Origin: Planctomycetaceae bacterium
GTDB lineage: Bacteria > Planctomycetota > Planctomycetia > Planctomycetales > Planctomycetaceae
DNA: 58,488 nucleotides
Direction of reading: 5' to 3'
Assembly: GCA_016795145.1 (NCBI GenBank)
Contig: JAEUII010000132.1
Location: 1 to 58,488 of the forward strand
Positions 4,972-26,484 of the stretch are shown here, one piece after another. Every line of letters begins with the position of its first letter. Within the stretch, counting starts at the first letter, position 1. The notes under the pieces are model-generated. The model saw only the letters and a list, made by a program, of their open reading frames with translations, had not been told where the DNA came from and made no database searches. The position numbers and the translations under genes were made by a program.

Positions 4972-5384
4972 GTTCTCAGCCGGACACTCCCTCAACCGAT
5001 GTCCCTGAAGATTCGCTGATACTGGCGATTCGTCAGATTCTGTCCGAGCGTCTCTTTGTGCCGCTCGACGAAGTTCTGCCAAACAGTCGACTGATTGCCG
5101 ACCTTCAGGCAGATTCTCTTGATTTCGTTGATCTGCAGTTCGTGCTTGAGAAGCGATTTGAGATTCACTTTGGCTACGGCGAATTCTTCGATGCTACGCC
5201 AGACTGGGTCACGAAAGACGGATTTCTTCAGCCTCAGGCAGTGGAGCGACTTACCGGACTGCTGCCTGTGCTGGCGAGTTTTGCGGCACAGGGTCCAGTG
5301 CCGCTCAAAGTGTTCTTTGATCATTTGACCGTCGATACGGTGGCAAGAATTGTCCGGCGTCAACAGGCGAAAATGGGACGTTGA
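4968..5384 (+). CDS. Acyl carrier protein with extended C-terminus
   Basis: The protein has 138 residues, whereas a standard ACP has about 78. The carrier fold is readable from residue 15 (DSLILAIRQILSERL) to the phosphopantetheine site DSLDFVDL, with S50 as the attachment residue. The following helix III region is unusual: it contains a Phe/Tyr-rich stretch (FEIHFGYGEFFDATPDW) and an extra helical tail that ends in RRQQAKMGR. It is the dedicated carrier for the neighbouring ketosynthase, dehydratase and reductases. It overlaps the FabF stop by ATGA (4968-4971). No phosphopantetheinyl transferase gene is visible nearby, so activation would use one encoded elsewhere. Confidence 0.85.
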   Translation: MSSQPDTPSTDVPEDSLILAIRQILSERLFVPLDEVLPNSRLIADLQADSLDFVDLQFVLEKRFEIHFGYGEFFDATPDWVTKDGFLQPQAVERLTGLLPVLASFAAQGPVPLKVFFDHLTVDTVARIVRRQQAKMGR

Positions 5385-5404
5385 TTCAAAGGCGGAGCAT
5401 CACC

Positions 5405-6907
5405 ATGGAATTTAAGTATCGACTGCCACTGCTCGAAACTACGGATCATGTTTACTACTCGATGACCAGAAGCTTATGTGCCGTCTGCCGACAGGGAGTG
5501 GACGCCAGGATTCTTGTCCGGGACGGAGCTGTCTATTTCGAAAAGTTCTGCCCGCAGCACGGCCACCAGTCCTGCCTGGTTTCCTCCAGTGCAGAGTGGT
5601 ATTTCGACGCGATGTCATTCCTGGCCCCCAGTACTCCGCCTTCCCGAATTTCGCGTCCGGTTGAAAAGGGGTGTCCATTCGACTGTGGAGCGTGTGCGTC
5701 GCATCAGCAGAAGGTCTACCTGCCTGTCATTCCCATTACCTCATCGTGCAACCTTGACTGCCCTATCTGCTATACGATTAACAGAAACACGGCAGCTTAC
5801 CGGATGTCGACGGAGGAAATGCAGAAGATCCTTGAGCATCTTCTGGAAGAACATTCCGAACTGGACATCATCAACTTCACCGGCGGTGAGCCGACACTGC
5901 ATCCGCAACTGCTTGAGTTTCTGGAGATGTGCCGTGACGCCGGGATTCGTCGCCTGACCATCTCCACAAACGGTCTCAGGCTTCTGGACGAAGATTATAC
6001 ACGTCGTCTTGCGGCACTGGATGCCCGTGTGATTCTGTCGCTCGATACCTTCCGAGCTGAAGTGGATCACGCGCTGCTTGGGGCAAATACGGTTGAACAC
6101 AAACTCAAGGTGCTTGATCTGCTGGAGAAATACGATGTGACAGGCACGCTTTTGCCCGCGGTGGCGGCGGGATACAACGATGACGAGATCGGAGGACTTT
6201 TGGAACTTGTGCTACAGCGGCCAAACCTCTGTTCCCTGGAACTGCACACACTGACATTCACAGGGCAGGGCGGAACCGGGTTCAATCGAGCCGGACGGAT
6301 CACGATTCCGGACCTCCATCGTCGAATCGAAGAGGCAACGGAAGGACGCATTGTCTGGAAGGACTTTGTCCCTTCCCCACTGGCTCATTCCCACTGCTAT
6401 TCCATTTGTTATTTGCTGATGCTGGATGACGGCGGCTATGTGCCATTCACCCGAATCATGCCGCGTACCAGGCTGTACGAACTGCTTTCGGAGTCTTTGT
6501 ATATCGAGCCCCGTGATCAGCTGGAGGAAGTTTTCCGGCAGATCATTGATGATCTGTGGGCTGACCCCGATCGGATTCCTGAAGGCCCTGCGGTTCTGAG
6601 AACACTCAAGGCCATGCTGCGAGAACTCTACCCTACAGATCGCGCACCGCTGTCACTGCCGGAACGAAGGAAGAAAGCAGAACGCCGTGCCAAAGCGATT
6701 TACATCCACTCTCATATGGATGAAGAGAGTTTCGATGTCGGTCGTATCATGAAATGCTGTGTCGGTGTCCCCGCGCCCGATGGCAGCAACATTCCGACCT
6801 GTTCCTACAATGTTCTCTATCGACAGCAGGATCCTCGATTTGTTGACCCTGCAACTTTGCAGCGAATGGAGCAATCCCGGCCTTCGGTGAAGAAGGTGAA
6901 TTCATGA
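5405..6907 (+). CDS. Radical SAM enzyme, tetraether-synthase (Tes)-like family, first copy
   Basis: This 500-residue protein carries the radical SAM triad C115-NLD-C119-PI-C122. Upstream are two further Cys clusters: C25-AV-C28 with C49PQH, which looks like a rubredoxin-type site, and C90PFDCGAC (C90/C94/C97). A C-terminal cluster lies in IMKCCVGVPAPDG with a further Cys in PTCSYN. This layout matches the COG1964/Tes family; archaeal tetraether synthase joins lipid tails by radical carbon-carbon bond formation. Start ATG 5405 follows a good ribosome-binding site (GGCGGAG, eight bases upstream); a TTG at 5381 would overlap the ACP stop. It differs from the family pattern CGLCPxH (here CGACASH). 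Its substrate is likely an ACP-bound or phospholipid acyl chain, but that is inference. Confidence 0.85.
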   Translation: MEFKYRLPLLETTDHVYYSMTRSLCAVCRQGVDARILVRDGAVYFEKFCPQHGHQSCLVSSSAEWYFDAMSFLAPSTPPSRISRPVEKGCPFDCGACASHQQKVYLPVIPITSSCNLDCPICYTINRNTAAYRMSTEEMQKILEHLLEEHSELDIINFTGGEPTLHPQLLEFLEMCRDAGIRRLTISTNGLRLLDEDYTRRLAALDARVILSLDTFRAEVDHALLGANTVEHKLKVLDLLEKYDVTGTLLPAVAAGYNDDEIGGLLELVLQRPNLCSLELHTLTFTGQGGTGFNRAGRITIPDLHRRIEEATEGRIVWKDFVPSPLAHSHCYSICYLLMLDDGGYVPFTRIMPRTRLYELLSESLYIEPRDQLEEVFRQIIDDLWADPDRIPEGPAVLRTLKAMLRELYPTDRAPLSLPERRKKAERRAKAIYIHSHMDEESFDVGRIMKCCVGVPAPDGSNIPTCSYNVLYRQQDPRFVDPATLQRMEQSRPSVKKVNS

Positions 6908-8409
6908 GCCTGCTACCCATTCTGAGCACTGAATTTCACCTGACTCAGACCAGAAAGGGGCAGGAGATCTTTCATTCGTTCAGCCGCGGGTTGTGCCCCG
7001 TCTGTCGGGAACTTGTGGACGGAGCGCGCATCATCCGGGATGGAAAGGTCTACCTTCGCCGGCAATGCCCGAAGCATGGCATGCAGGAATCCCTGATCTC
7101 GGGCGACGTCGAGTGGTTCCTTAAATCGCTGAGTTTTGCACGGCCCGGCATCCAGCCCAAAGAATACTCAACGAACGTCGAAAAGGGTTGTCCGCACGAC
7201 TGTGGTCTCTGCCCGGATCACGAACAGCACTCGTGTCTGCCAATCATTGAAATCACAAATCACTGCGACCTGGAGTGCCCGATCTGCATTGTCCAGAATC
7301 GTCACAACTACCACATGACACGGACGGAGTTCGTCTCCATTCTCGATGGCCTCGTGCGAAAGGAAGAACTGATCGACACAGTGAATCTCTCGGGAGGCGA
7401 ACCGATGCTGCATCCCGAGATCCTGCAGTTCATCGATACGGCCAGACAGTACCGACAGTTCACCCGGCTCTCGATTTCGACCAACGGACTGCGGATCGCC
7501 TCGGACTGGGAATTCTGCCAGCAGCTTGCTGAACGCGGCGTCTACATCAACCTGCAGCTGGACTCGCTGAGCAACCAGTCATTGCGAACCCTCCGAGGCA
7601 CCGGGAGGCATGACACGGTCAAACAGAAGGCACTGGAAAACCTGGAACGAGCGGGTGTCCGAACGACAATTGTCGCCACGATTGCCAGGGGTGTGAACGA
7701 TCATGAAATTGGAGACTGTGTCCGGCTGGTGATGGAGAAGGACTTTATCCTTTCCCTGATGTTTCAACCCGCCGCTTACACGGGCACGGGAGGAAGCCAG
7801 TTTGGGCCGCACGATCCGCTGGACATCATTACGATCCCTGACATCGTTCGCTGCATGGAAGAACAGACCGGCGGCGACCTGAAACGGTCTGACTTTCTGC
7901 CATTACCGTGTTCACATCCCGGCTGCTTCGCACTGACCTATCTGCTGAAGACGGAGGACGGCTGCATTCCGTTTCCTCGATTCATCGAACTTGAAAATTA
8001 CATTGCTGCAATCACAAATCGCGGGACCATCCGCCCCGACGATCGCTTTGACGAAATGCTCCGGAACACAATCGATCAGCTTTGGTCAGCTGCGGGGCAA
8101 ATCCCGGACAGTCCCCGCATTTTGCGAACGCTGAAGCGCGCGTTGCGGCTGATGTTTCCGGACGATCGGAGAATCGAACTGGAAGAACGACTTCGCCTTG
8201 GCGAGGGACTCGTAAAGACCATCTTTATTCATGCGTTCATGGACGAACACACGTTCGAAGTCGATCGAATCAGAAAATGCTGTACTCACTACGCGCTGCC
8301 GGACGGTCGGCTGATGCCAGGGTGCGCGTACAACATGATGTATCGCCACCGTGACTCCCGTTTTACGGGCCCGATCGGAACGGCCCAGCTCAGGATTCCA
8401 GGACAGTGA
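6904..8409 (+). CDS. Radical SAM enzyme, tetraether-synthase (Tes)-like family, second copy
   Basis: This 501-residue paralogue of the preceding gene is collinear with it over its whole length. The radical SAM triad is C121-DLE-C125-PI-C128. The N-terminal C31-PV-C34 with C55PKH and the KGCPHDCGLCPDH cluster (C96/C100/C103) are closer to the canonical Tes pattern than in the first copy. The C-terminal segment KCCTHYALPDG followed by GCAYNMMYRHRD is also conserved. Translation starts at ATG 6904 in an ATGA overlap. Two adjacent diverged copies point to two successive or differently specific radical steps, or to a heterodimer. Alternatives within the family include other radical lipid-modifying enzymes; the exact reaction cannot be read from sequence. 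Confidence 0.87.
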   Translation: MSLLPILSTEFHLTQTRKGQEIFHSFSRGLCPVCRELVDGARIIRDGKVYLRRQCPKHGMQESLISGDVEWFLKSLSFARPGIQPKEYSTNVEKGCPHDCGLCPDHEQHSCLPIIEITNHCDLECPICIVQNRHNYHMTRTEFVSILDGLVRKEELIDTVNLSGGEPMLHPEILQFIDTARQYRQFTRLSISTNGLRIASDWEFCQQLAERGVYINLQLDSLSNQSLRTLRGTGRHDTVKQKALENLERAGVRTTIVATIARGVNDHEIGDCVRLVMEKDFILSLMFQPAAYTGTGGSQFGPHDPLDIITIPDIVRCMEEQTGGDLKRSDFLPLPCSHPGCFALTYLLKTEDGCIPFPRFIELENYIAAITNRGTIRPDDRFDEMLRNTIDQLWSAAGQIPDSPRILRTLKRALRLMFPDDRRIELEERLRLGEGLVKTIFIHAFMDEHTFEVDRIRKCCTHYALPDGRLMPGCAYNMMYRHRDSRFTGPIGTAQLRIPGQ

Positions 8410-13770: not shown

Positions 13771-14250
13771 CGCAGTCCCCGCAACGGGAGCGTTGGACCA
13801 GCCGGGAGTCTATCTGCATGAAGAATTGCCAACAAGCAGAGGCTTCGATGAGGAGTCATTCGTTCTGCATACCATGAATCAATATGCGTGCCTGGTACGA
13901 CACTGCATAACTTCGAGCAAAACTAAGCTCGGGCAACACTGCCATTCGCAACACAAGCAGCCTGACCCTTTCGTCCGTGAACCTTCGATGAAAACGCATT
14001 GCTTCATGCATTCCGGCGTTCAATGCCGACGCGAATCCTATTGTGTTGCCTACGGAGTGACAGCGACTTTCGGGGAACGAAGGCAGGCGGCCCCGTTGAC
14101 TTTCACGAACTCACGCGAGTAGCATCCGAATTCCACCGCTATCATTCCAGCAAAAAGACTTTGGGCCAGAAGTCTGTTCGGTGATCTGCAAATCAAGCCG
14201 GCGCTGGTTGTTCGTTGTCCGTCGTTCCCTCCTCAGAAGGAGTACGGGGC
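13771..14250. other. Divergent intergenic region
   Basis: There are 480 bases between the 5' ends of the dioxygenase (minus) and the TolA-like gene (plus). It should hold both promoters. I see no repeat, no RNA gene and no supported small gene; the short open frames here lack ribosome-binding sites. Confidence 0.4.
14235..14242 (+). promoter_or_regulatory. Ribosome-binding site fixing the start at 14251
   Basis: AGAAGGAG lies eight bases before ATG 14251. It argues against the in-frame upstream TTG at 14215. Confidence 0.8.
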
Positions 14251-15147
14251 ATGAGCCCGGGGTGTCCAGATCGAAAAACGCAGATGGCCGTTCCGTCACT
14301 TCAAGTTTCACCGATGGACCGCGTCGTGACCATGCTAAGCGTCAGCCTGATTGGCGCGTCTGGTTTTCTTGCCTGCATGGTTGTGGCATGGTTGAGTGAC
14401 TTTCAAGCCGCCAGGAACACCACGCCGCCTCCGGAAGTCGGTGCCATTGTTGCTTCAGGAGAAGAAACTCTCATTCCTCAGTCTGGACAGATTGAATCGC
14501 CGGACGAGACAGATGTTATGGCTTCGGCAAACGAACAGGCGATTTCCTTTCTGCCTGCCGAACTTCTGGCAGAAGCGGGGCTTGCGATACCGACGGCCCT
14601 GACAATCGACGATGTCACAGAAGAACCCGAAAGCACTCGAAGGGGTCTGCCGAGTGAAACAGAAGGGTCGGGCAAAAGGCCGATCGGTGGCGGAGGCCGT
14701 CGCGTTTCAAGAACCTGGCAGATTGAACTGGGTTCGGATTCACTGGCCGAATACCAGAGGCAGCTTGGACAGTTACAAATTGACGTCTCCGCCAAATCCT
14801 CGGATGGAACCGTGGTGACTCTTCACTTCGATGAAGCCGGCAAAATGACGGTTTCGCGACGGCCAGTGCAGCAAGCGGCGAACGATCAGCGGTTTGTGAT
14901 GGTCGTCGAAAACACAGGCAACCCGCTGGGACGTGCCGACGAGGCACTTTTTCAACAGGCAGGTGTGGCGATAGAGGGTGCAGAATTTGTTCACTACCTT
15001 TCGAATGAGGCGGAACAGCATTTGGAGCGGCTGGAGCGGGCGGCGGCAGGCCAAAATGACGTTCGGAACATCCTCCGGACAGAATTTTCCGTCCGTCCTG
15101 CAGATGGACGATATGAGTTCTTTGTCACTGAACAGATCATTCGCTAA
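14251..15147 (+). CDS. TolA/TonB-like membrane-anchored protein, paralogue 1
   Basis: The protein has 298 residues: a short cytoplasmic N-terminus, one membrane helix (about 29-48), an acidic Pro/Glu-rich linker (50-140), a glycine-rich joint (GKRPIGGGGRR) and a C-terminal alpha/beta domain of about 140 residues that ends YEFFVTEQIIR. The next gene shares this architecture and its ending (YEFFVMKQVLK). The layout of anchor, extended linker and periplasmic domain, encoded directly before ExbB and ExbD homologues, matches a TolA/TonB-type force transducer; sequence identity to TolA or TonB themselves is not evident. The start is set by a strong ribosome-binding site. Confidence 0.7.
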   Translation: MSPGCPDRKTQMAVPSLQVSPMDRVVTMLSVSLIGASGFLACMVVAWLSDFQAARNTTPPPEVGAIVASGEETLIPQSGQIESPDETDVMASANEQAISFLPAELLAEAGLAIPTALTIDDVTEEPESTRRGLPSETEGSGKRPIGGGGRRVSRTWQIELGSDSLAEYQRQLGQLQIDVSAKSSDGTVVTLHFDEAGKMTVSRRPVQQAANDQRFVMVVENTGNPLGRADEALFQQAGVAIEGAEFVHYLSNEAEQHLERLERAAAGQNDVRNILRTEFSVRPADGRYEFFVTEQIIR

Positions 15148-15226
15148 AAGAAGTGATCATTGAAATTCTGGATTGTGCCTCCGGAACCCGCGCGTGGGCT
15201 CTGGGGGAACTCGTTTGGGATTGAGT

Positions 15227-16141
15227 ATGTCGACAGCAGGAACAAGCCGCCGAGGAATGAACGCCCGTGCGCCGCACATCAAACTGACAAAGTACGATGT
15301 TGCCGTTTCGATACTTCAAACGTCCGCATTGTGCGCTGGCCTTACCTTCATGGTGATGCTGTTCATTTGGCTGTCGAATCTGCTTCCAGCTCCGGTGTCT
15401 CGCAAGGTGGAGCTGATGCCAGCAGGTGACGGCGGCTGGGAAGACGGGACACCGGACGCGACTCCGAAAGTTGAATCTCCGGAAGACGCGACGGTCGACC
15501 CATCGATGGCGAATGAAGAAACCGACGTGACTCAACTGGAAGAAGTGGTCGAGCAGGTCGTGGAAGTTTCCGAAAACGCCGCCACGATCGTCGCACCGAA
15601 CGAGTCGACTCAGAACCAGACCTCGGGGATCCCTGGAAGTGCCGACGGCACTGGTGGTCGTCCTCTGGGAAGTGGTGGGCCAGGCCGAGGCGGTGCGAAG
15701 CGTGAGAACGGATGGATCGTTGAGTTCGCTGACAAGGGTGACATTGAAAGCTATGCGGCTCAGCTTGATTACTTTGGAATTGAGCTGGGGCTTTTGATCA
15801 AAGAAGAGAGTCGTCTGATCTACGTCAGTAATCTCACCAAGCCTAAACCGGACACTCGAGAAGTCCGAACTGGCGACGGCGAAAAGCGGTTGTTTATGAA
15901 CTGGCAGGATGGTAGCCAGGAACGCGTCAAGGCGGACATGGAGTTGATGAAGAAGGCAGGACTGGATGGAGCGATCGGATCGATCATCCATTTTTATCCG
16001 GCGAAAACGGAGCAGCAGATGGCGCAGCTGGAAGTGGATTTCCAGAATCAACAGCCATCCGCGATCCGTCGAACAACATTTGGAGTTCGGCGGCAGGGAG
16101 GCGGGTACGAGTTTTTTGTGATGAAACAGGTTTTGAAATAG
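15227..16141 (+). CDS. TolA/TonB-like membrane-anchored protein, paralogue 2
   Basis: The protein has 304 residues: a basic N-terminus, a membrane helix (27-53), a very acidic linker with the segment EEVVEQVVEVSE, a Gly-rich joint (GTGGRPLGSGGPGRGG) and a C-terminal domain that parallels paralogue 1. In both, a strand (WIVEFADKGDIESYAAQL here, WQIELGSDSLAEYQRQL there) opens the domain and YEFFV closes it. ATG 15227 is used; the in-frame TTG at 15173 would add residues with no family support, and ATG 15257 is a second choice. It lies 79 bases after paralogue 1 and 99 before ExbB. Two copies may form a heteromer or transmit to two targets. Confidence 0.7.
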   Translation: MSTAGTSRRGMNARAPHIKLTKYDVAVSILQTSALCAGLTFMVMLFIWLSNLLPAPVSRKVELMPAGDGGWEDGTPDATPKVESPEDATVDPSMANEETDVTQLEEVVEQVVEVSENAATIVAPNESTQNQTSGIPGSADGTGGRPLGSGGPGRGGAKRENGWIVEFADKGDIESYAAQLDYFGIELGLLIKEESRLIYVSNLTKPKPDTREVRTGDGEKRLFMNWQDGSQERVKADMELMKKAGLDGAIGSIIHFYPAKTEQQMAQLEVDFQNQQPSAIRRTTFGVRRQGGGYEFFVMKQVLK

Positions 16142-16240
16142 GAACGCCGGAACGTGAAAACAGCGAATCAATGGGATTCGCGTTACGTCTGGTGCAGGTG
16201 TCTTTTCGGTCCCTGAGTTTGAATCAGGTTGGAATCTCCC

Positions 16241-16972
16241 ATGATGAGGTTTGATGATATCGTTCGACTCACTGGCATGCTGGCTCAGGACGCTGCGGCT
16301 GCAGCTCCGGCTGCCGGTGCATCCACCTTCATGAAGATCGTCGAAAACTCGATCTGGGTTGGCATCGCGGTTTGTGCTGCGGGTGGGATGTACGCCGGTC
16401 TTCTGCTGATGCGTCGAATCAGTCAGAAGAGGTTCCCGGGACAGGCTTCTGAGCAGGCGTTCCTGAACGAAGTGGGCGAGTGCCTGGATCGTCAGGATTT
16501 CGACGGAGCGTTGCAGCTTTGCGACACACCGGCCGTCTGGAACAAGGCACTGGCTCAGCTGGCCTTGCTGGCACTTCAGTCGCGGCAGGAGCCGATGAAG
16601 AAGATTCGTCAGCTGGTGGGCGAGCGGTTTGAACGTGACATTCTGGGAAGCCTCGACCGAATGAACTCCTGGGTCGGAACCAGCATTAAGACGGCTCCTC
16701 AGCTGGGACTGCTGGGTACCGTTTTGGGGATGATCAACGCGTTTGCCAAGATCGCCGGCGCGGCGGCTACCGGGGTCGACCCGAAGGAACTGTCTGCGGA
16801 CATTTCGTTCGCTCTTTGGACCACCGCCGCCGGGATGGCCATTTCGATTCCATTGATCGTGCTTCAGGGTTCTGCTCAAAACAGCATCAAGCAGCTACAG
16901 GAGAACATTGACGAAGGCACAGGTCTGTTTTTGGATGACCTCGCAGCCGCGAAGTCCCGTGCTGGCATCTAA
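16241..16972 (+). CDS. MotA/TolQ/ExbB-family proton channel protein
   Basis: This 243-residue protein has an Ala/Pro-rich N-terminus (QDAAAAAPAAGAS), a first membrane helix (about 32-52), a cytoplasmic domain, and the paired C-terminal helices with the hallmark segment TAPQLGLLGTVLGMINAFAKI followed by DISFALWTTAAGMAISIPLI. ExbB/TolQ proteins form pentameric stators that couple proton flow to force on TonB/TolA-type proteins through the ExbD/TolR dimer. ATG 16241 is preferred to the in-frame TTG 16229. The following two genes both encode ExbD-type domains, so one ExbB may serve two different ExbD partners. Confidence 0.9.
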   Translation: MMRFDDIVRLTGMLAQDAAAAAPAAGASTFMKIVENSIWVGIAVCAAGGMYAGLLLMRRISQKRFPGQASEQAFLNEVGECLDRQDFDGALQLCDTPAVWNKALAQLALLALQSRQEPMKKIRQLVGERFERDILGSLDRMNSWVGTSIKTAPQLGLLGTVLGMINAFAKIAGAAATGVDPKELSADISFALWTTAAGMAISIPLIVLQGSAQNSIKQLQENIDEGTGLFLDDLAAAKSRAGI

Positions 16973-17075: not shown

Positions 17076-17528
17076 ATGGCTGCTGAAGATGATGATGCAC
17101 CGTTTGTCCGGAAGGCGCGACCGCCGGAAGACACGGAAATCGACATCACCCCGATGATTGACGTGACATTCCAGCTGCTGATTTTCTTCATGGTGACATC
17201 CACCATGCAGGGCAATCCGCCAGCGATCGTGCCACGATCGGTGTCAGGCGGTGCGACCGAAATGACAAAGATCGCGATCAAGCTGGTGATCAAGGCACCA
17301 GTAGATTCAAACACCGATCCGGTTATGGAAATTGACAAGAAGCCGATCACGCTGGAAGAGCTCAGAGGACGACTCAACGAAGAAGCGGGCACTCACCCGA
17401 ACGGCATCGACCTGATGATCATGGGTGACAAGGACGTGCCGAATCGCTTCACGGGTGAAATCGAAACGATGATCTCCGAGATTCCGAATATCGGATTCCA
17501 TTACGCTGTTCAGGATCGACGTGAGTAA
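17076..17528 (+). CDS. ExbD/TolR-family biopolymer transport protein
   Basis: This 150-residue protein has the expected length. A charged cytoplasmic N-terminus is followed by EIDITPMIDVTFQLLIFFMV, in which D29 is the conserved proton-carrying Asp of the single membrane helix. The periplasmic domain follows (TLEELRGRLNEEAG; VPNRFTGEIETMISEI). It is expected to pair inside the ExbB pentamer encoded upstream. It ends five bases before the kinase-ExbD fusion gene, which carries an almost identical membrane segment (DVTFQLLIFFMVT), so the two could form a heterodimer. Confidence 0.92.
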   Translation: MAAEDDDAPFVRKARPPEDTEIDITPMIDVTFQLLIFFMVTSTMQGNPPAIVPRSVSGGATEMTKIAIKLVIKAPVDSNTDPVMEIDKKPITLEELRGRLNEEAGTHPNGIDLMIMGDKDVPNRFTGEIETMISEIPNIGFHYAVQDRRE

Positions 17529-17533
17529 CCACT

Positions 17534-19090
17534 ATGGCAGCGTCTGACATGAATGATCTGACAGACAAACGACTCGGCGAATTCCATCTCCTGCGCAGGC
17601 TGGGCAGCGGTGGGATGGCTGAAGTGTTTCTCGCCGAACAGACCAGCCTGCAGCGTTACGTCGCCGTGAAGGTGATGAAGCCTTCACTGATGGCTCATTC
17701 CGGACAGGACATGCTGCAGCGGTTCAAGCAGGAAGCCATGATGGCGGCCGGTTTGAATCACCCCAACATCGTTCAGGTCTACACGATTGGTCAGGAAGAC
17801 GGACTGCATTACATCGCACAGGAATTTGTTCAGGGCAAAGACCTCGCGACGATCATCAAAGAACGCGGCAATCCGGATCTGGCTTCGGCATTTCATGTGA
17901 TGAAGCAGGTCGCAGCGGCATTGAAGGCGTCTGGCCAGGCAGGCATCGTGCATCGGGACATCAAGCCCGAGAATATCCTGGTCACGAAAAAGGGTGAGGT
18001 CAAAGTTGCTGACTTTGGTCTTGCTCAGCTGGGTGAATCAGGTACGGAGAAAGACGGAGTGACGATGGGCACTCCACTTTATATGAGTCCTGAACAGGTC
18101 AGCGGTCGCGAACTGGATCCTCGATCGGACGTGTATTCATTTGGTGTGACGTGTTACCAGCTGCTGTGCGGCGAAACACCGTTCCGGGGCACGACGCCAG
18201 TTCAGATTGCCATGCAGCATCTGAAGAACCCGCCGCCAAGCCTGAAGAAGAAGAACCCGGCTCTTCCGGATATCGTTTGCCGAGTCGTTCATCGAATGAT
18301 GGCCAAGCGTCGGACACTCCGGTACCAGTCGGCAGAAGAGGTTCTTGAGGATATCAAGAAGCTGATCGTCGCTCAGAAGCAAGGCCGTTCGCTGGACCTG
18401 GTTCGCCTGCCTCGTCTGGAAGAACTCGAAAAGCTGGCGGAGGAGGAGCGACAGAAGCAGCTCAAGCTGACCGGCAGCCTGCCACCGGAACTCGTTGAAG
18501 ACGGGCTTGAATTGTCACCCGGCGCACCGGTCAACCAAACCAGTGTCATGGCCAGTCGCTGGGCGGAATCTCAGGCGGTCAACACGGACCTCGAAGAAGC
18601 CGAAGTGGTTGAGGCCGAACCGGTCGCTGTCGCAGTCGCCGACGATGATGATGACATCCCACCGCGCAAACCTCGACCTGCCGACAATGCCGCGATCGAC
18701 CTGACGCCTGCGGTAGACGTGACGTTTCAGCTTTTGATTTTCTTCATGGTGACTGCGTCGTTCAGCATGCAGAAAGCGTTCGACGTACCTCCTGCAAAGA
18801 AGACAGACGGTATTTCGACACAGATCCAGGTCGATCCTGAAGAATCGAGTGCTGCTGTTAAGGTGCTGGTCGAAGCCGATAACACGATGTTTGTCGACGA
18901 AACCAAAAAGGCGACTTCGTACCGCGAGATTCTGGATCTGCTGAAGGCCGAGAAGAACCTCAGCGCTGACACAACAGATGTGGAACTGGAACTACATCCG
19001 GATTCCACTCATGAAGCTCGAGTGATGGTGATTGATGCTGCGGCTCAGGCCGGGTTCACTCGAGTAAAGAACAAGATTGTTGAGAACTAA
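17534..19090 (+). CDS. Ser/Thr protein kinase fused to an ExbD domain
   Basis: This 518-residue protein carries two modules. Residues 15-280 form a Hanks-type kinase with G-loop GSGGMAEV, K46 (AVKVM), HRD at 140-142, DFG at 160-162 and the activation-segment end SPEQ, so all catalytic residues are present. A linker (290-385) with a coiled-coil-like Glu/Lys segment and a run of Asp follows. Residues 386-518 are an ExbD/TolR module: AIDLTPAVDVTFQLLIFFMV with D395, then a periplasmic domain. The kinase would sit in the cytoplasm and share its membrane helix with a proton-channel stator. The gene lies five bases after the separate exbD gene. The frame runs uninterrupted through both modules. ATG 17549 is an alternative start. 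Confidence 0.93.
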   Translation: MAASDMNDLTDKRLGEFHLLRRLGSGGMAEVFLAEQTSLQRYVAVKVMKPSLMAHSGQDMLQRFKQEAMMAAGLNHPNIVQVYTIGQEDGLHYIAQEFVQGKDLATIIKERGNPDLASAFHVMKQVAAALKASGQAGIVHRDIKPENILVTKKGEVKVADFGLAQLGESGTEKDGVTMGTPLYMSPEQVSGRELDPRSDVYSFGVTCYQLLCGETPFRGTTPVQIAMQHLKNPPPSLKKKNPALPDIVCRVVHRMMAKRRTLRYQSAEEVLEDIKKLIVAQKQGRSLDLVRLPRLEELEKLAEEERQKQLKLTGSLPPELVEDGLELSPGAPVNQTSVMASRWAESQAVNTDLEEAEVVEAEPVAVAVADDDDDIPPRKPRPADNAAIDLTPAVDVTFQLLIFFMVTASFSMQKAFDVPPAKKTDGISTQIQVDPEESSAAVKVLVEADNTMFVDETKKATSYREILDLLKAEKNLSADTTDVELELHPDSTHEARVMVIDAAAQAGFTRVKNKIVEN

Positions 19091-19159: not shown

Positions 19160-22100
19160 GTGGCCGCTGCAAAGAACGACGACGAAAAAGATGATGCCGC
19201 AAAGGATGCCCTTTCGGCAAAGGCTCGCCAGCAGTTGAAGCGAGGACGTCTGAGCGCGCTGAGTGACAAACTGACGGGCGGCCCGGAACGGCCTGGCGAA
19301 CAGAAGATCGGTCGTTCGCCACTGGTCCTGTTGCTGACAGGAACCACGGTCGGAGCGTTTGTTCTGGCGGCAATTTTCTGGGTGATCAATGCTCGCAACC
19401 AGGAAGACCGTCTCTTTAAGGAGGCGAATGCGTCACTGGAACAGCAGAAGTATCTCGACGCGGAAGTGCAGTTTTCGAAGTTTCTGCAGAGCTATCCAAA
19501 GACGGAGAACAGCCCGGCCGCCAAAATCGGTCTGCATCGGGCAAAAGTCGAAAAACACATTTTCACGAACACTCCGGATGTCATCAAGGGGATGGCTGAA
19601 CTGCAATCCATGATCACGGAATGCGGCGAACTGCCAGGGTTTGACAAAGTTCAGGACAACATGCGTCGGTACTCAGACCGTCTGGCCTACGCCGGTGCTG
19701 TGGTGGCAGAACTTGCACCGTCGGCTGAAGCGCTGGAAGTCAGTCGCAAGGCGGTGGATTTGCTGCGTCGTTATTCCGGCGAAGCAGGGATCCCTGCGTC
19801 TCGCGAACAGTTCCTGGTGGAACGTCAGCGTATTGCGGAAGGTGCCATTGCCAAGAAGCTGGACTTTCAGAGCACCCTGGATCAGATCAAAGGTCTCCTG
19901 GAAAAAGGCGACACGATCGCAGCCATAGCCGTCCGTCAGGCACTCATTGATAAGTATTCGAGCCTGAAGGATGACAAAGATGTCCAGAAGATGCTGGTGG
20001 ACATTTTGGCTCGTGAGAAGGAATTCGTGGTTCGAACAGACCTCGGACGTGATGGTCTGAAAGCAGAGGCTGCAACAGAACCTCTTCCGTCACTGGCTCT
20101 TTCGCTGCGGACACAGGCAGCGTCTGACTTTGTGTCGCAGGGCCGATTCGTTTACGCGATTGGACTCGACAGTTGTTTTTCTCTCGACGCAGATACGGGC
20201 GATCCTCGCTGGAAGCGAACAATCGGCGTTGACTCTCCGTTTGCTCCCGTTGTTATCAAAGGATCCGAAACAGGGATCCTTGTCTACTCGACAATTTCTG
20301 AAGAGCTTCAGTTGCTGGCGGAAGCGGACGGGAAAATTGTCTGGCGTCAGTCACTGGAATCTCGTCCAACAGCAGCCCCGGTCGTTGTTTCCGGCACCAT
20401 CTACATCACGACCGAAGCGAATGAACTATGGCAAATCGCCAGTGTGAACGGGCGAGCCCAGGCGAAGCTGAAGTTTTCGCAGCCGATCTTCGGTCCACCA
20501 GCGGTCTCAAGTGATTCGCTCAAGATGGTCGTGCCGGGTGACCAGACTCTGGTCTACACGATCAGCCTGAATCCGTTCAGTTGCCTGGCTGTATCACACA
20601 TTCCTCATCGCACCGGAAGCGTCGGTGCTCCGATGCTGTCGGCCGGTCGTTATTACCTGATGGTGGATAACAACACGGCTGATAAGGCTCGAGTCCAGAC
20701 GCTTCAGGAAGAGGCGGACGGCAGTTTGACGATCGTTGCCTCTGACAACGTCGACGGACAGGTTCATGACGCCTGCCTGCTGCGTGGCTATGAACTGTTT
20801 GTTCCCTCGACGCCTCAGCGAGTCACCGCATTTCGCGTTGGCGACGAACGTGGCCAGCAGCCGCTGGCACTGGTGGGGTCAAACCAACTGGAAGAAGGGA
20901 CACAGACAGACATGTTCCTGCTGGCAGGTCCCGGTGGCCAGGTCTGGCTGGCAGGTCGCGACCTTCGAAGACTTCAAACCAAGACCAACAGTGTTGAGCT
21001 GGATACGACGACGACGGCAGAAGGGTTCCATGTTCGACCCATTCAGTTGATCGAGGAATCTGTCTTTCTGACCACTCGGTCACAACAGGCGGATTTGTCA
21101 TCGACGTTCTTTACTCGCACCGATCGCGAACAGATGCGAGGCATCTGGAAAACGGTGCTGGGTTCGCGAGTCGTCGCGATGGGACCAGCCACTGGCGGTG
21201 AATCGCTGCTGGCTCTGACAGATTATGGTGAGTCGTATCGAATTCCCGTCGCGGATCTGGGCAAGGCTGGTTTTCTGCTGGAGACGGTGAGCCGTTTCCG
21301 ACTACCGGAAAAACTGTCCTCACCAATTGAAGGTGTCATGCTCAGCGACGGACGGCCAGCGGCCTGGTGCGGTACACCAGAACCTTCCATGTGGACCTTT
21401 ACGACGACGGGGCAGCTGGAACGCCGATGGACACTCCCGGATCCTCCGCAGGTTGCTCCAGCTGTCATCGACGCTGGCGTTGTGTTTGCAATGCAGGGTC
21501 GACTGCATCTGTCAGGCATGGCCGGTGGAAAGACGGCGGAGGATTATCGACTGTCGCAGACAAGCGGCAACGTTCAGCCATGGAAATGCCTGGTCTCTTT
21601 GTCAGCAACCCAGGTTCTTGGCATTACCGCTCAGAACGAGTTCATTCGTGTTGAATATCGCCCGACGCCAAAACCGCAGCTCGCGGAAATCAGTGTGACA
21701 AAGATTCCGCAGCCTGTGGAACTTCCTCCAGCCGTGGCGGATGGATTCCTGTTCGTCCCGACATCGGACGGCAAACTGCTCCTGATGCAGGCCTCTACAC
21801 TGGAAGTTCTTGCGGAAAAGGACCTTGGCGGTGTCGCAACGGCAACCCCAAAGGTTGCCGGAGGATTCGTATTCGTTGAGGTCGGTGGCCAGCAGGCAAA
21901 GGTCTTCCGCATTGAGGAATCCCTGCCGGATGCTGGTACGCTGCCACTGGATGGATTCGCTCTGGCAGGGAATCCGGTGGCGGTTGATGGCGGACTTGTC
22001 GTTGCACGAACTGACGGTCTGCTGACTCGCCTCAACACCGACGGTGCTCCCGCGAATGCTCAGCTCCAGATCGGTCAGGCGATTCAGTCCGGAGTCAGAC

Positions 22101-22174
22101 TGGTGAATGGTCAGCTTGTTGTGGTCGGTTTCGACGGAAGTATCTACTCCGTCAATCCGTCTCTCGCCCGATAA
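19160..22174 (+). CDS. Membrane-anchored TPR-like/PQQ-type beta-propeller protein
   Basis: This 1004-residue protein has a charged cytoplasmic N-terminus, one membrane helix (about 54-77), a helical repeat region that begins with the TPR-like segment QKYLDAEVQFSKFLQSYPK, and a long C-terminal region of WD/PQQ-like blades (for example DSCFSLDADTGDPRWKRTIG and AEADGKIVWRQSLESRPTAAP). Such proteins act as scaffolds in the periplasm; the fold recalls BamB-type propellers, though no BAM partner is encoded here. GTG 19160 follows GGAAGA. It lies 69 bases after the kinase-ExbD gene and likely belongs to the same envelope complex. The exact ligand or partner is unknown. Confidence 0.8.
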   Translation: MAAAKNDDEKDDAAKDALSAKARQQLKRGRLSALSDKLTGGPERPGEQKIGRSPLVLLLTGTTVGAFVLAAIFWVINARNQEDRLFKEANASLEQQKYLDAEVQFSKFLQSYPKTENSPAAKIGLHRAKVEKHIFTNTPDVIKGMAELQSMITECGELPGFDKVQDNMRRYSDRLAYAGAVVAELAPSAEALEVSRKAVDLLRRYSGEAGIPASREQFLVERQRIAEGAIAKKLDFQSTLDQIKGLLEKGDTIAAIAVRQALIDKYSSLKDDKDVQKMLVDILAREKEFVVRTDLGRDGLKAEAATEPLPSLALSLRTQAASDFVSQGRFVYAIGLDSCFSLDADTGDPRWKRTIGVDSPFAPVVIKGSETGILVYSTISEELQLLAEADGKIVWRQSLESRPTAAPVVVSGTIYITTEANELWQIASVNGRAQAKLKFSQPIFGPPAVSSDSLKMVVPGDQTLVYTISLNPFSCLAVSHIPHRTGSVGAPMLSAGRYYLMVDNNTADKARVQTLQEEADGSLTIVASDNVDGQVHDACLLRGYELFVPSTPQRVTAFRVGDERGQQPLALVGSNQLEEGTQTDMFLLAGPGGQVWLAGRDLRRLQTKTNSVELDTTTTAEGFHVRPIQLIEESVFLTTRSQQADLSSTFFTRTDREQMRGIWKTVLGSRVVAMGPATGGESLLALTDYGESYRIPVADLGKAGFLLETVSRFRLPEKLSSPIEGVMLSDGRPAAWCGTPEPSMWTFTTTGQLERRWTLPDPPQVAPAVIDAGVVFAMQGRLHLSGMAGGKTAEDYRLSQTSGNVQPWKCLVSLSATQVLGITAQNEFIRVEYRPTPKPQLAEISVTKIPQPVELPPAVADGFLFVPTSDGKLLLMQASTLEVLAEKDLGGVATATPKVAGGFVFVEVGGQQAKVFRIEESLPDAGTLPLDGFALAGNPVAVDGGLVVARTDGLLTRLNTDGAPANAQLQIGQAIQSGVRLVNGQLVVVGFDGSIYSVNPSLAR

Positions 22175-22204: not shown

Positions 22205-24784
22205 ATGAAGACCGAATCCAAACCACAGTGGTGCGCAGCAGGTCGTGTGACGGCGACCTTACTTTTGCTTCTGACGGCAGTGTGTCAGGCCTCAGTCGCA
22301 GACGAAAAAGTCGAACGCCCGTCGCTTCCAAAACTCACGGACATGCAGTTACCGTCGGCTGAAGCGTTGTTGCGCGCGGATGCGGAAGACAAAGAATTTG
22401 ACTGGGTGGTGCTGAAGGCCCCGGCGGAAGCCGACCGTCTTTGCGTCGTCGTTGTCCCAATCTATCCTCGCCCGGACACTCTGAAGAAGATGGCGGAGGA
22501 TTATAAAAAGGTCGAAGCGTCACGCCCCCAGAATCAGAAAGAACGGGAGTTTCGTGCCAATCGACTGAAGGCTTTGCAAAGACTTCTGGTAAAGGTGCCA
22601 GGCGACCTGAATGACTACGGCATCCCGGTTGATCAGATCGACCAGATCATCTTCTTTGAAGACCTGATGTTGCAGCGAGTTGACCAGTTGCTGGAGGCTG
22701 GTGACTTCCGAACGGCGTACGAGCTTCTGCTGCGAGTCGAAACGGAAATTCCAAACTGGGACAAATCCGTTCCTCGGTTTGAAAAGCTGCTGCTGGTCGA
22801 AGCTGCGGAGCGAGCCAAGGCCGGCGAAACTTATGCAGCCCTGGCGCTGCTGGATGAAGTCACGGTCCGCAACAAAGACAGTGTTCAGCTGCCGGCCGAG
22901 CTGGGTCGCATTGTCGGCCCAATGATTGATGATGCTATTTCGAAAGAAGATTATCGCAAGGTTCGGTACCTCCTGACTCGCGTGCAGAAGAACGTTCCGA
23001 ATCACGAACTGATTTCGGGAACTCAAAGTCGTCTTCAGGGCCAAAGCGAAGCACTGCTGGGCCAGGCTGCTGAAAAAACGAAAGCACGAGACTACGCGAG
23101 TGCCGCGGAACTCGCACGAAGAGCAGAAACGATCTGGCCAACGACGGGAAATGCTCGTGCTGCGTTCACACAGTTTTTTGCACGCCACCAGGTTCTTCGA
23201 GTCGGCACGAACGACTTCGAAGGTCCGTCCGTCTATCCGGCTCCGCTGGAGCATATGGAACGACACCGCGAACTGGAAGAAGTGTGTCTGTTTGAGCCGT
23301 CATCGGCAGACGAACTGACCTACTTCCGATCCAGCTTCTTTGAAGTCTGGGATCCGGCAGACCTGGGCCGTGAAGTTCTATTCACTCTTCGCGAAACGCG
23401 ACCAGGCTGGCAGTCTCAACCATTGCTGACGGCCAATCAGATTGCTGACGCACTGGCAGACCGAATGAACCCGGAAAGTCCGTTTTACAGTCCGCGAGTT
23501 GCTTCATACGTGAAGGAAGTGTCCGTTCGCTCTCCGTCACAGCTTCGAATTCGTTTCACTCGCGTCCCGCTCAGCATTGAGTCGCTGATGCGGTTCCCGG
23601 CGACCGGTCGACCTGTCGTCACTTCAGAAAGCGTGAGTGCGGATAACGCCAATGCAGAAGCTCCACAGGCTCATGAACACGGCATCATTTCGACTCGCTT
23701 CAAACGAGTGAAGTCTGATGAATCCGGACACATGTGGCTGCGACAGATTCCGGAACCGGATGGCTTTGATTCCAGCAAGTATCATATCGCCGAAATCCAG
23801 GAGCACCGCTTTGCAGACCGCTCCAACATGTTCCAGGCACTGATTCGTGGTGATGTGGACTACGTTCCTCATTTGATGCCATGGGAAGTTGATGCCTTCA
23901 AAACATCGACAGCGTTTCAGGTGCGAAAGTACACATTGCCGCTGACTCATGTGCTGGTGTTTAACCCGCTTTCGGAACGAGTCAACAATGCTCAGGTTCG
24001 ACGATCTTTATCGTTCGCAGTCAATCGGGAAGGGTTACTGAAGTCCACGGTACTGCGAAGTGAGGACATGAAGTACGGTCGGCCAACCAGTGCGGCCTGG
24101 CACCTGAGCAGTTATGCGACCGAACCTCGGCAGGAACCGCCTCGGTTCAACCTGCGACTTGCTTACGCTCTTCGATTTGCCGCTGAACGTCAGCTGCAGA
24201 TCGCAGAACTGATGAAGCTGCTTGATGCGGCCAAGGCGGAAGCGAAGAAGAACAAGATCACTCTGGATGAAGAGAAGTTTCGCAAGGAAACCAAGGTCGA
24301 CTACATCAAGCTTCCACGGCTGCGCTTTGTCGTCCAGCCGGATCCAGTCGCGCGAGCTGCCACAGAGCGAATGATGATCTACTGGCAGAGAATCGGATTT
24401 GAGATCGACCTCGTTCAGGGTGACCAGGCCGGAAATCCGCTGCCCGATACAGACTGGGACTTCTGTTACCGCACGGTTCGCATGGAAGAGCCACTTCTTG
24501 AGCTGTGGCCACTTCTGGCGAATGATTCAAAGCTGAACATTGAGCGTCTGCTTGTGTTCCCGGACTGGATGCGTCAGGAAATTGTTGGACTCGACTACGC
24601 GACCAGCTTCCCCGATGCACAGGAAAAGCTCTACACAATTCACAACCACATCGCGGCTCAGGCGTTTGTCATTCCTCTCTGGGAAGTCGACGACTACGGT
24701 GTGTTCCGCAAGAACGTATCCGGTGTGCCCGACGAGCTGATGTCGACGTATCAAAATATTGAACGATGGATGATCCGCCCATGA
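22205..24784 (+). CDS. Secreted protein with helical N-terminal region and SBP5-like (peptide-binding) domain
   Basis: This 859-residue protein has a signal peptide (1-32, cleavage near QASVA), then about 300 residues of helical repeat-like sequence, then a region resembling family 5 extracellular solute-binding proteins (DppA/OppA type). Typical pieces are LLTANQIADALADRMNP, FQALIRGDVDYVPHL, VRRSLSFAVNREGLL and DTDWDFCYRTVRM. No permease or ATPase gene of an ABC importer is nearby, and there is no lipobox Cys. In this setting it may bind a peptide or cell-wall fragment and report to, or be moved by, the ExbB/ExbD machine rather than feed an importer. Start ATG 22205 lies 30 bases after the propeller gene. 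Confidence 0.75.
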   Translation: MKTESKPQWCAAGRVTATLLLLLTAVCQASVADEKVERPSLPKLTDMQLPSAEALLRADAEDKEFDWVVLKAPAEADRLCVVVVPIYPRPDTLKKMAEDYKKVEASRPQNQKEREFRANRLKALQRLLVKVPGDLNDYGIPVDQIDQIIFFEDLMLQRVDQLLEAGDFRTAYELLLRVETEIPNWDKSVPRFEKLLLVEAAERAKAGETYAALALLDEVTVRNKDSVQLPAELGRIVGPMIDDAISKEDYRKVRYLLTRVQKNVPNHELISGTQSRLQGQSEALLGQAAEKTKARDYASAAELARRAETIWPTTGNARAAFTQFFARHQVLRVGTNDFEGPSVYPAPLEHMERHRELEEVCLFEPSSADELTYFRSSFFEVWDPADLGREVLFTLRETRPGWQSQPLLTANQIADALADRMNPESPFYSPRVASYVKEVSVRSPSQLRIRFTRVPLSIESLMRFPATGRPVVTSESVSADNANAEAPQAHEHGIISTRFKRVKSDESGHMWLRQIPEPDGFDSSKYHIAEIQEHRFADRSNMFQALIRGDVDYVPHLMPWEVDAFKTSTAFQVRKYTLPLTHVLVFNPLSERVNNAQVRRSLSFAVNREGLLKSTVLRSEDMKYGRPTSAAWHLSSYATEPRQEPPRFNLRLAYALRFAAERQLQIAELMKLLDAAKAEAKKNKITLDEEKFRKETKVDYIKLPRLRFVVQPDPVARAATERMMIYWQRIGFEIDLVQGDQAGNPLPDTDWDFCYRTVRMEEPLLELWPLLANDSKLNIERLLVFPDWMRQEIVGLDYATSFPDAQEKLYTIHNHIAAQAFVIPLWEVDDYGVFRKNVSGVPDELMSTYQNIERWMIRP

Positions 24785-26484
24785 TTCGAGGCCGATTCCT
24801 TACTGCTCTCATTTGCCTGGCATCCGCTGGTATGGCCTGCGTGCTCAGTGCTCAGGAACCCGCACCTGCAGCGGCTGCAAGTGGCACTCAGACGGCACCC
24901 GCCACGCAGGCTGCCGGCAATCCCGCAGCAGCTCCAGCAGCATCCACGACGGCAGCAACCACTGCGTCATCCAGCGCTCCGGCTGCAAAGCAAATTCCAC
25001 TTCCGGACCGCCCCTATCGCGTCAGCGTGCAGGTTGGCTTTCGCGGCCCGATGACCACTCTGGCATCTTTCCGAAAGAAGACGGTCGCGTCAATTCGAAG
25101 TGGGTTCACTCGCATGTACGGTGCAATGTGGGACGCCACTGTTGAAGACTCGGCCTGGTTCGTTCCGGCAGACCAATGGCGGATGGAACGATTGACCGTC
25201 GAGAACATGGCTCGGTACACCGATGAAACGACCGACAAGGTCATTCTCATTGCGATCGAAGACCTTGAAGCGGGTTATCAGGTTTCCTGCCGGGAGTTTG
25301 ATACCAAGGTCCAGGAGTATTCGCCGGTCATCTCAAAGCGAATCGGGAACGCCTCAGGAGTCGCCGATGCCGCCTGCCAGCTTGGCCGAGATTCGTTTCG
25401 ACCGTTCCTGCTGTTCGCCAATCCGGGCGTCGACAAGTCCAAAGGCGAACTTGAATTCCTGCTTCAGGCCGGCAACCTGATTCCGCCGGACCCATCCGCG
25501 GCGCAGATTGCAGAGGGCGACGTGCTTCGAACGTTTCTCCGCCAAATGGACCGTAAGGATCCAAAGAAGGTGAAACTTCTTCAGCGTCTGGACCTGTGCT
25601 ACATCCGAGTCACTGCGTTCAACGAAGTCCTTGGGACCGCTGAACTGAAGGATGAGGATGCGGGAGTGACAGTGCAGGGTGCCACCACGGCGCCGAGCAA
25701 CGCATACACAGACACCAGCCATGTACGAGGTCTGCTGTTGTCACACGGCCCGGTACCGTTCGGCGGTAAGTCTCGAAACCTGATGCAGATTGGGCTTCGA
25801 CAGAGACCCGTCGCAAGCAAAAGTCGAGTCCGAATGGTTCTGCAGAACCGTGAAGACCGTCCTCTGATTTGTGCTCGAGTTGACGTGGTTCAGAAGCTGC
25901 GTCAAACCGATGTCAGCGACATTCCTCCTCGACGAGTTCTGACAGGACGCGATGGCGATCTGCACCTCGATGTGGATCCAAAGAATCCGACGTTCTGGCT
26001 GTACGTTTATAGCGGTACGATTCTTCTGGCTCGCGTCCCTTACGCTCCGGGATTGATCCCCGAAGAAGTCATGAAACTGCCAGATGACTCGCTTCGACTG
26101 GGCGTCGAAGGCGAACTCTACCTGATGCGTGACGAGCTTGTGGATATGGTCGCTGAGAAGGCGGTCTACATGAGCATCGCGAAGAAGGCGTCAGAAGCAA
26201 AAGATGGTGAGGGATTCAAACAGGTTCTGGGGCAACTGTCGTCACTTCCGGGCAAGGAGTACTTCCAGCTGCAGCTCAACGAAACGCGAGCACCAGCAAT
26301 CGACAAAGCCACTCGCACAAAGAACCCCGGCGCGAAGCGACGCATCGAGCAGTTGTGCACAAAAATGGGTGACTCCATCACCACGTTCTTTTCTTCAGAG
26401 CGAATCCTGAAGGACGCGACAGAACTTTCCAAACTTCGTCAGGCAGCGGGGCTTCCGCCGGAGGATGAGGAAGAGAAAAAATAA
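24781..26484 (+). CDS. Secreted protein of unknown function with Ala/Pro/Thr-rich linker
   Basis: This 567-residue protein has a signal peptide (1-24, LSAQ), an Ala/Pro/Thr/Ser low-complexity stretch (25-70), then a folded region with no motif I recognise. It starts at ATG 24781 in an ATGA overlap with the SBP5-like gene and its TAA overlaps the next ATG by one base (TAATG). Translation of the three genes is therefore likely coupled, which argues for a shared function in the envelope system. The C-terminal 60 residues are charged and helical (ending GLPPEDEEEKK). No catalytic residues or binding motifs can be named. Confidence 0.75.
   Translation: MIRGRFLTALICLASAGMACVLSAQEPAPAAAASGTQTAPATQAAGNPAAAPAASTTAATTASSSAPAAKQIPLPDRPYRVSVQVGFRGPMTTLASFRKKTVASIRSGFTRMYGAMWDATVEDSAWFVPADQWRMERLTVENMARYTDETTDKVILIAIEDLEAGYQVSCREFDTKVQEYSPVISKRIGNASGVADAACQLGRDSFRPFLLFANPGVDKSKGELEFLLQAGNLIPPDPSAAQIAEGDVLRTFLRQMDRKDPKKVKLLQRLDLCYIRVTAFNEVLGTAELKDEDAGVTVQGATTAPSNAYTDTSHVRGLLLSHGPVPFGGKSRNLMQIGLRQRPVASKSRVRMVLQNREDRPLICARVDVVQKLRQTDVSDIPPRRVLTGRDGDLHLDVDPKNPTFWLYVYSGTILLARVPYAPGLIPEEVMKLPDDSLRLGVEGELYLMRDELVDMVAEKAVYMSIAKKASEAKDGEGFKQVLGQLSSLPGKEYFQLQLNETRAPAIDKATRTKNPGAKRRIEQLCTKMGDSITTFFSSERILKDATELSKLRQAAGLPPEDEEEKK

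Follow-up and report, generated by a model that had tools for sequence, protein, structure and literature searches.

The window analysed here, a stretch of 58,488 nucleotides from the genome of a Planctomycetaceae bacterium, contains a gene in which a Hanks-type Ser/Thr kinase and an ExbD subunit are joined in a single polypeptide. The product is probably a regulatory kinase tethered to the stator of a planctomycete ExbB-ExbD1-ExbD2 proton motor of the TolQR/ExbBD-like type. The analysis backs the anatomy of the protein, its conservation, purifying selection on both of its halves, its operon context, the replacement of a zinc ribbon by the kinase and the origin of the kinase in a resident family. 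The parts themselves, Hanks kinases and ExbD/TolR proteins, are known. No description of their combination, of its fixed place in an operon or of the interchange with a zinc ribbon was found in the open-access literature, most subscription papers lying outside this scope, which agrees with, and does not prove, the claim of the sequence-only reading that such a protein had not been described. Plasmid records returned kinase-only matches and no fusion.

The gene occupies a single frame at 17534-19090 on the forward strand, with 518 codons for amino acids and zero internal stops. In homologues the first methionine is the equivalent of M6, and the true start may therefore be 17549, which would give 513 aa. 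Pfam matches both halves: Pkinase at residues 17-262 (E 4e-51; 174.4 bits, cut-off 31.7) and ExbD at residues 384-512 (E 6.2e-17; 62.3 bits, cut-off 25.4). The uninterrupted frame with a complete kinase and an ExbD module that had been read from the sequence was thus recovered, and the residue numbering proposed for K46, HRD 140-142, DFG 160-162 and D395 was exact. The gene and its parts are laid out as follows.

17534 to 19090, forward strand: kinase-ExbD2 fusion gene, 518 aa (513 aa from the alternative start at 17549).
17576 to 18379, forward strand: Hanks-type Ser/Thr kinase domain, residues 15-282; PF00069 E 4e-51, invariant catalytic residues, PknB fold by Foldseek.
18380 to 18478, forward strand: post-kinase segment, residues 283-315 (QGRSLDLVRLPRLEELEKLAEEE); conserved, with a predicted helix at 293-313.
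18479 to 18697, forward strand: acidic linker, residues 316-388; fast-evolving and modelled with low confidence (pLDDT <50 at 316-395).
18698 to 19087, forward strand: ExbD/TolR module; PF02472 E 6.2e-17, single membrane helix at about 391-414 with the proton-binding D395, then a periplasmic alpha/beta domain.

The catalytic Lys, Glu, HRD, Asn and DFG are all in place (K46, E67, HRD 140-142, N147 and DFG 160-162), together with SPE at 185-187, and the post-kinase segment is diagnostic of the fusion. An AlphaFold2 model built from a 17-sequence alignment (mean pLDDT 71.9) gave a PknB-like kinase, low confidence over residues 316-395, a single helix spanning 391-414 and, from about 442 to 515, an alpha/beta domain of the ExbD type. 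With Foldseek the kinase matched PknB of Mycobacterium tuberculosis at TM-scores of 0.84-0.91 (target-normalised, best PknB chains), and in a phmmer search the closest solved sequences were StkP, PknA and PknB. The kinase lies N-terminal to the only hydrophobic segment of the protein (388-412). ExbD/TolR proteins are oriented with the N-terminus inside and have one transmembrane helix, two of them sitting in an ExbB/TolQ pentamer; since the fusion has no other transmembrane segment, its kinase is expected on the cytosolic side. No conserved start codon from which ExbD could be released alone was present within the linker of the fused relatives.

A search of other planctomycetes for the same domain combination, as had been suggested, recovered the fusion within one family, where about 35 genomes from six genera have it; 29 of these loci were read, and the others were judged by frame length and match only. 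It is found in 18 of 18 genomes of the source genus, 13 times intact, four times truncated by the end of a contig and once, in G006, with a frameshift. Genera g113 (4/4 genomes), g29 (8/8), g31 (3/3) and g6 (1/1) have it throughout, and g138 has it in one genome, G275. The assemblies are independent, and include the single-contig genome G095, apparently of a cultivated strain, and metagenome-assembled genomes (MAGs) from different projects. Titled records carrying the fusion are planctomycete MAGs, several of which, judging from isolate names, come from freshwater sampling series.

K46, HRD 140-142, DFG 160-162 and D395 are all invariant in the 17-sequence alignment and, where the letter is present, in the set of 29 (27/27, 28/28, 29/29 and 28/28, respectively), and the helix flanking D395 is likewise invariant in the fused proteins. 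Pairwise dN/dS, calculated by the Nei-Gojobori method only where synonymous changes were unsaturated, was 0.01-0.11 for the kinase part and 0.005-0.085 for the ExbD part of the fused relatives, against 0.2-0.48 for the linker where measurable. The two ends of the protein are therefore under strong purifying selection and the tether is not. Inactivity of the kinase in all orthologues, which had been named as a way in which the proposal could fail, finds no echo in these data: given the invariant catalytic residues and the very low dN/dS, the kinase looks active throughout. The invariance of D395 indicates that the motif of the ExbD part is kept, and is not proof of proton flow. Within the diverged linker, T336 (18539-18541) is a threonine in 24 of the 29 aligned fused proteins, in a region that aligns poorly, and stands in a TxVMP context in much of the source genus; it is a candidate autophosphorylation site.

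Two ExbD genes stand in tandem behind an ExbB/TolQ-type gene, and the fusion is the second of them. The neighbouring genes of the operon are these.

14215 to 15147, forward strand: protein A, a divergent paralogue of protein B (24-31% similarity to B homologues).
15173 to 16141, forward strand: protein B; N-terminal transmembrane helix, disordered linker and folded C-terminal domain (AlphaFold2), a TonB/TolA-like topology.
16229 to 16972, forward strand: channel subunit of the ExbB/TolQ/MotA family, 247 aa; PF01618 E 1.3e-19, nearest NCBIfam model TolQ, at a score under the cut-off; syntenic.
17076 to 17528, forward strand: ExbD1, 150 aa, with a short N-terminus; PF02472 E 2.6e-17, Asp of the PMIDV motif kept; syntenic in relatives.
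19160 to 22174, forward strand: membrane-anchored protein, 1004 aa; BamB-type beta-propeller and a short TPR-like stretch matching the YbgF model; syntenic.
22205 to 24784, forward strand: SBP_bac_5 domain protein, 859 aa; PF00496 E 1.2e-15; syntenic.
24766 to 26484, forward strand: 24766-type protein, 572 aa, with no assigned family; syntenic in kinase and zinc-ribbon loci, and the end of the conserved core.

The order B, ExbB, ExbD1, X-ExbD2, propeller (PQQ) protein, SBP and 24766-type protein is common to family members with and without the kinase, X being the slot that the kinase fills here. The operon itself occurs class-wide. In the alignment the Asp motif is retained by each of the two ExbDs and the Thr-rich pore helix by ExbB. 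Among fusion-bearing genomes, the operon proteins diverge to about 37-45% identity. Protein B adjoins the motor in nearly all loci and is conserved class-wide; no second copy corresponding to protein A was seen beside B in the related loci examined. An assignment of B as a TonB, TolA or vWA transducer was not adopted, since the protein has no Pfam or NCBIfam match and its C-terminal domain found no convincing counterpart with Foldseek and VIA-align (best Z 3.2), a result which says nothing against a relation. Against the best NCBIfam models of the Tol-Pal system, scores were 45.6 for TolQ (cut-off 221) and 34.6 for TolR (cut-off 127). The TolA, TolB and Pal families had no match in the locus of the window, where the BamB-type propeller and the YbgF-like TPR, both weak matches below NCBIfam cut-offs, are combined in one protein and B has a TolA-like topology. 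Judged by these profiles, the operon resembles a Tol-like trans-envelope system and is not classifiable as Tol-Pal, because the closest motor models are TolQ and TolR while all scores fall below the cut-offs.

Two further loci of the window were recorded. An FHA-GAF-SpoIIE phosphatase is encoded on the reverse strand (31336-32988) a few kb downstream of the fusion; it was considered as a phosphothreonine reader or partner phosphatase and set aside, as it is not near the fusion in relatives. At 5381-8409, two adjoining radical SAM genes each carry an N-terminal HMPTM-type zinc ribbon.

Relatives without the kinase reveal what else slot X can hold. In 22 of the 22 kinase-less loci of the operon tree it contains a CxxC...CxxC zinc ribbon and an acidic linker, followed by the same ExbD domain; many named planctomycete records likewise have a zinc ribbon there, and a few have neither ribbon nor kinase. 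The tree built on the five other operon proteins was rooted with zinc-ribbon loci from other families; in it the 18 main kinase loci form one clade (SH-aLRT 100) within the zinc-ribbon loci, which on this rooting makes the ribbon the ancestral content of the slot. The fused kinases in turn form one clade in the kinase tree (95/70), nested in a class-wide family of free kinases that are single-pass membrane-anchored in 10 of 11 cases. The source genome has such a free kinase (C160:16097-16921), 53% identical to the fused one and without ExbD. The simplest history compatible with these trees starts with the duplication of a resident membrane kinase, whose kinase domain then took the place of the ribbon in ExbD2. 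With the kinase in place of the ribbon, the ExbD2 N-terminus, presumably cytosolic, is thus a plug-in site, of which the kinase is the enzymatic version.

The two operon trees place G275 differently. In the full tree it groups with the zinc-ribbon loci G136 and G023 (SH-aLRT 99), in a smaller tree under another model it joins the kinase clade (87), and in the kinase tree its kinase joins the fused clade (95/70). A single acquisition of the kinase is the simpler reading of these placements; the disagreement between the operon trees makes a second acquisition, in G275, possible. Other variants of the slot were also observed. The zinc-ribbon ExbD2 frame of G267 (L204:393-7154, contig C3) encodes 2253 aa, with some 1,800 residues of low-complexity repeats, such as EYSMDGVVALPEADGSFFPPEAAG, separating the ribbon from the membrane helix. 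The ExbD2 proteins L078, L079, L080 and L081, from other planctomycete families, have long N-terminal extensions with no zinc ribbon; those of L078 and L079 have weak, sub-threshold GYF_2-like matches, and the four extensions are possibly another occupant of the slot.

Several other explanations of the fused gene were weighed. That an assembly or frame artefact has joined two genes is of negligible probability. The halves do lie in different frames in G006, through a one-base frame change in the linker (L051:6560-6690), and this was the only split orthologue encountered; however, ATG, GTG and TTG are all absent ahead of the membrane helix of its ExbD half, and as this half could not function as a gene of its own, the split is probably a sequencing or assembly error, a real frameshift being possible. 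A similar frame break in the kinase frame of G275 (L202 near 7089), in the N-lobe, is probably also such an error. As the same fusion is shared by independent assemblies, among them G095 and named MAGs of different projects, the artefact was rejected, and with it the other way in which the sequence-only reading had said that its proposal could fail. A genuine fusion could still be a passive one, with two independent activities kept in one chain only for co-expression and with no coupling between them. The disordered, fast-evolving linker and the abundance of kinases in the genome would suit such an arrangement, which is nonetheless quite unlikely: no natural split occurs across the approximately 35 genomes in spite of the deep divergence of their operon proteins, and the presence of another cytosolic domain in the slot of relatives points to a positional role.

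The kinase domain could conceivably be catalytically idle, a pseudokinase-like docking platform substituting for the zinc ribbon, whose site, that of a presumed binding domain, it occupies. Such idleness is very improbable in the face of catalytic residues that are all invariant over 29 proteins, including the RD-type activation segment. A more serious alternative assigns to the ExbD part mainly the function of a membrane or localisation anchor for the kinase, with torque produced by ExbD1 homodimers, the donor kinase having exchanged its own transmembrane anchor for that of ExbD. The habitual membrane anchoring of the free kinases of the donor family is in keeping with this, and we infer that ExbD1 alone could in principle supply both ExbD helices of the pentamer. 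Both the anchoring function and the exchange of anchors are unlikely, however, considering that D395 and its flanking helix are invariant and that purifying selection on the periplasmic domain is strong. Moreover, the zinc-ribbon relatives always have the second ExbD, without kinase, and the role of this ExbD therefore predates the kinase.

Under the favoured reading of a stator-tethered kinase, the membrane helix with D395 would share the interior of the ExbB pentamer with ExbD1, and the periplasmic ExbD2 domain would work with other envelope proteins of the operon. The cytosolic N-terminus would act as a docking or regulatory slot, filled elsewhere by a zinc ribbon and here by a presumably active PknB-like kinase, which a flexible tether of about 75-100 residues would keep next to the motor on its inner side. 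From there it could phosphorylate its neighbours, namely the cytosolic loop of ExbB, the ExbD1 tail, the N-tails of A and B, itself or a cytosolic regulator, and so tie the state of motor and envelope to signalling, with the signal passing from the motor to the kinase or the other way round. The sequence-only reading had proposed a kinase coupled to a proton-driven stator; its physical joining to an ExbD stator subunit stands, whereas a functional coupling of phosphorylation to proton flow is something that we infer. Nothing in the linker, which is long and little conserved, points to a rigid mechanical link from the motor to the kinase, and the flexibility of the tether argues for control by proximity, which is easier to defend than direct transmission of force. 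For the same reason it is doubtful, if conceivable, that the protein is a receptor kinase with a rotary proton motor for its sensor, in which rotation or proton flow through ExbB/ExbD1/ExbD2 alters the position or activity of the kinase, or in which the kinase is an onboard clutch. If the motor does act as the sensor, proton-motive force or outer-envelope load would be directly read as protein phosphorylation.

The source genome holds roughly a hundred kinase-like matches, and kinase fusions as such are therefore expected in it; what is unusual is the proton-motor partner and the long retention. For the questions of how ExbB/TolQ-type motors are turned on or off and of whether cells monitor motor activity, a motor subunit that brings its own kinase offers a genetically tractable handle. 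Point mutants of K46 or D160, compared with those of D395, would tell signalling and proton transport apart in the same chain. The plug-in site also leads one to expect a docking or regulatory function of the zinc ribbon.

Compared with known systems, the locus shares with TolQR/ExbBD motors an ExbB/TolQ-type gene beside ExbD/TolR genes, a single transmembrane helix with the proton-binding Asp and a small periplasmic domain. Canonical TolR/ExbD proteins differ in their short cytosolic N-tail (13 residues precede the motif in many proteobacterial matches), where the fusion has about 390 residues with a kinase. The PASTA kinases PknB and StkP, whose group (StkP, PknA, PknB) is closest by sequence and fold, have the same succession of kinase, one transmembrane helix and extracytoplasmic domain; they carry PASTA domains outside, whereas the fusion has ExbD and a proton-channel helix expected in an ExbB pentamer. 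The PASTA-kinase model NF033483 covers the kinase part only, at 330.4 bits against a cut-off of 450, with ExbD in place of PASTA. The AglRQS gliding motor of Myxococcus xanthus is regulated via MglA and a separate protein, GltJ, which has zinc-ribbon and GYF domains. Like the motor described here, it combines one TolQ-like subunit with two different ExbD/TolR-like subunits (AglR, AglQ and AglS; PMC3169522), AglQ and AglS being without kinase. Loci with heterologous tolR pairs have been described in the PVC group (PMC12204202), and they resemble the present one in having TolQ, a pair of unlike TolRs, a TPR partner and a force-transducer candidate composed of a transmembrane helix, a disordered linker and a globular C-terminal domain; here no vWA domain is recognised, B is without a recognised fold and a kinase is added. 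The zinc-ribbon ExbD2 of other planctomycetes corresponds to the fusion in orthologous position, operon, ExbD domain and acidic segment ahead of the membrane helix, and differs in having a CxxC...CxxC ribbon and linker where the fusion has its kinase.
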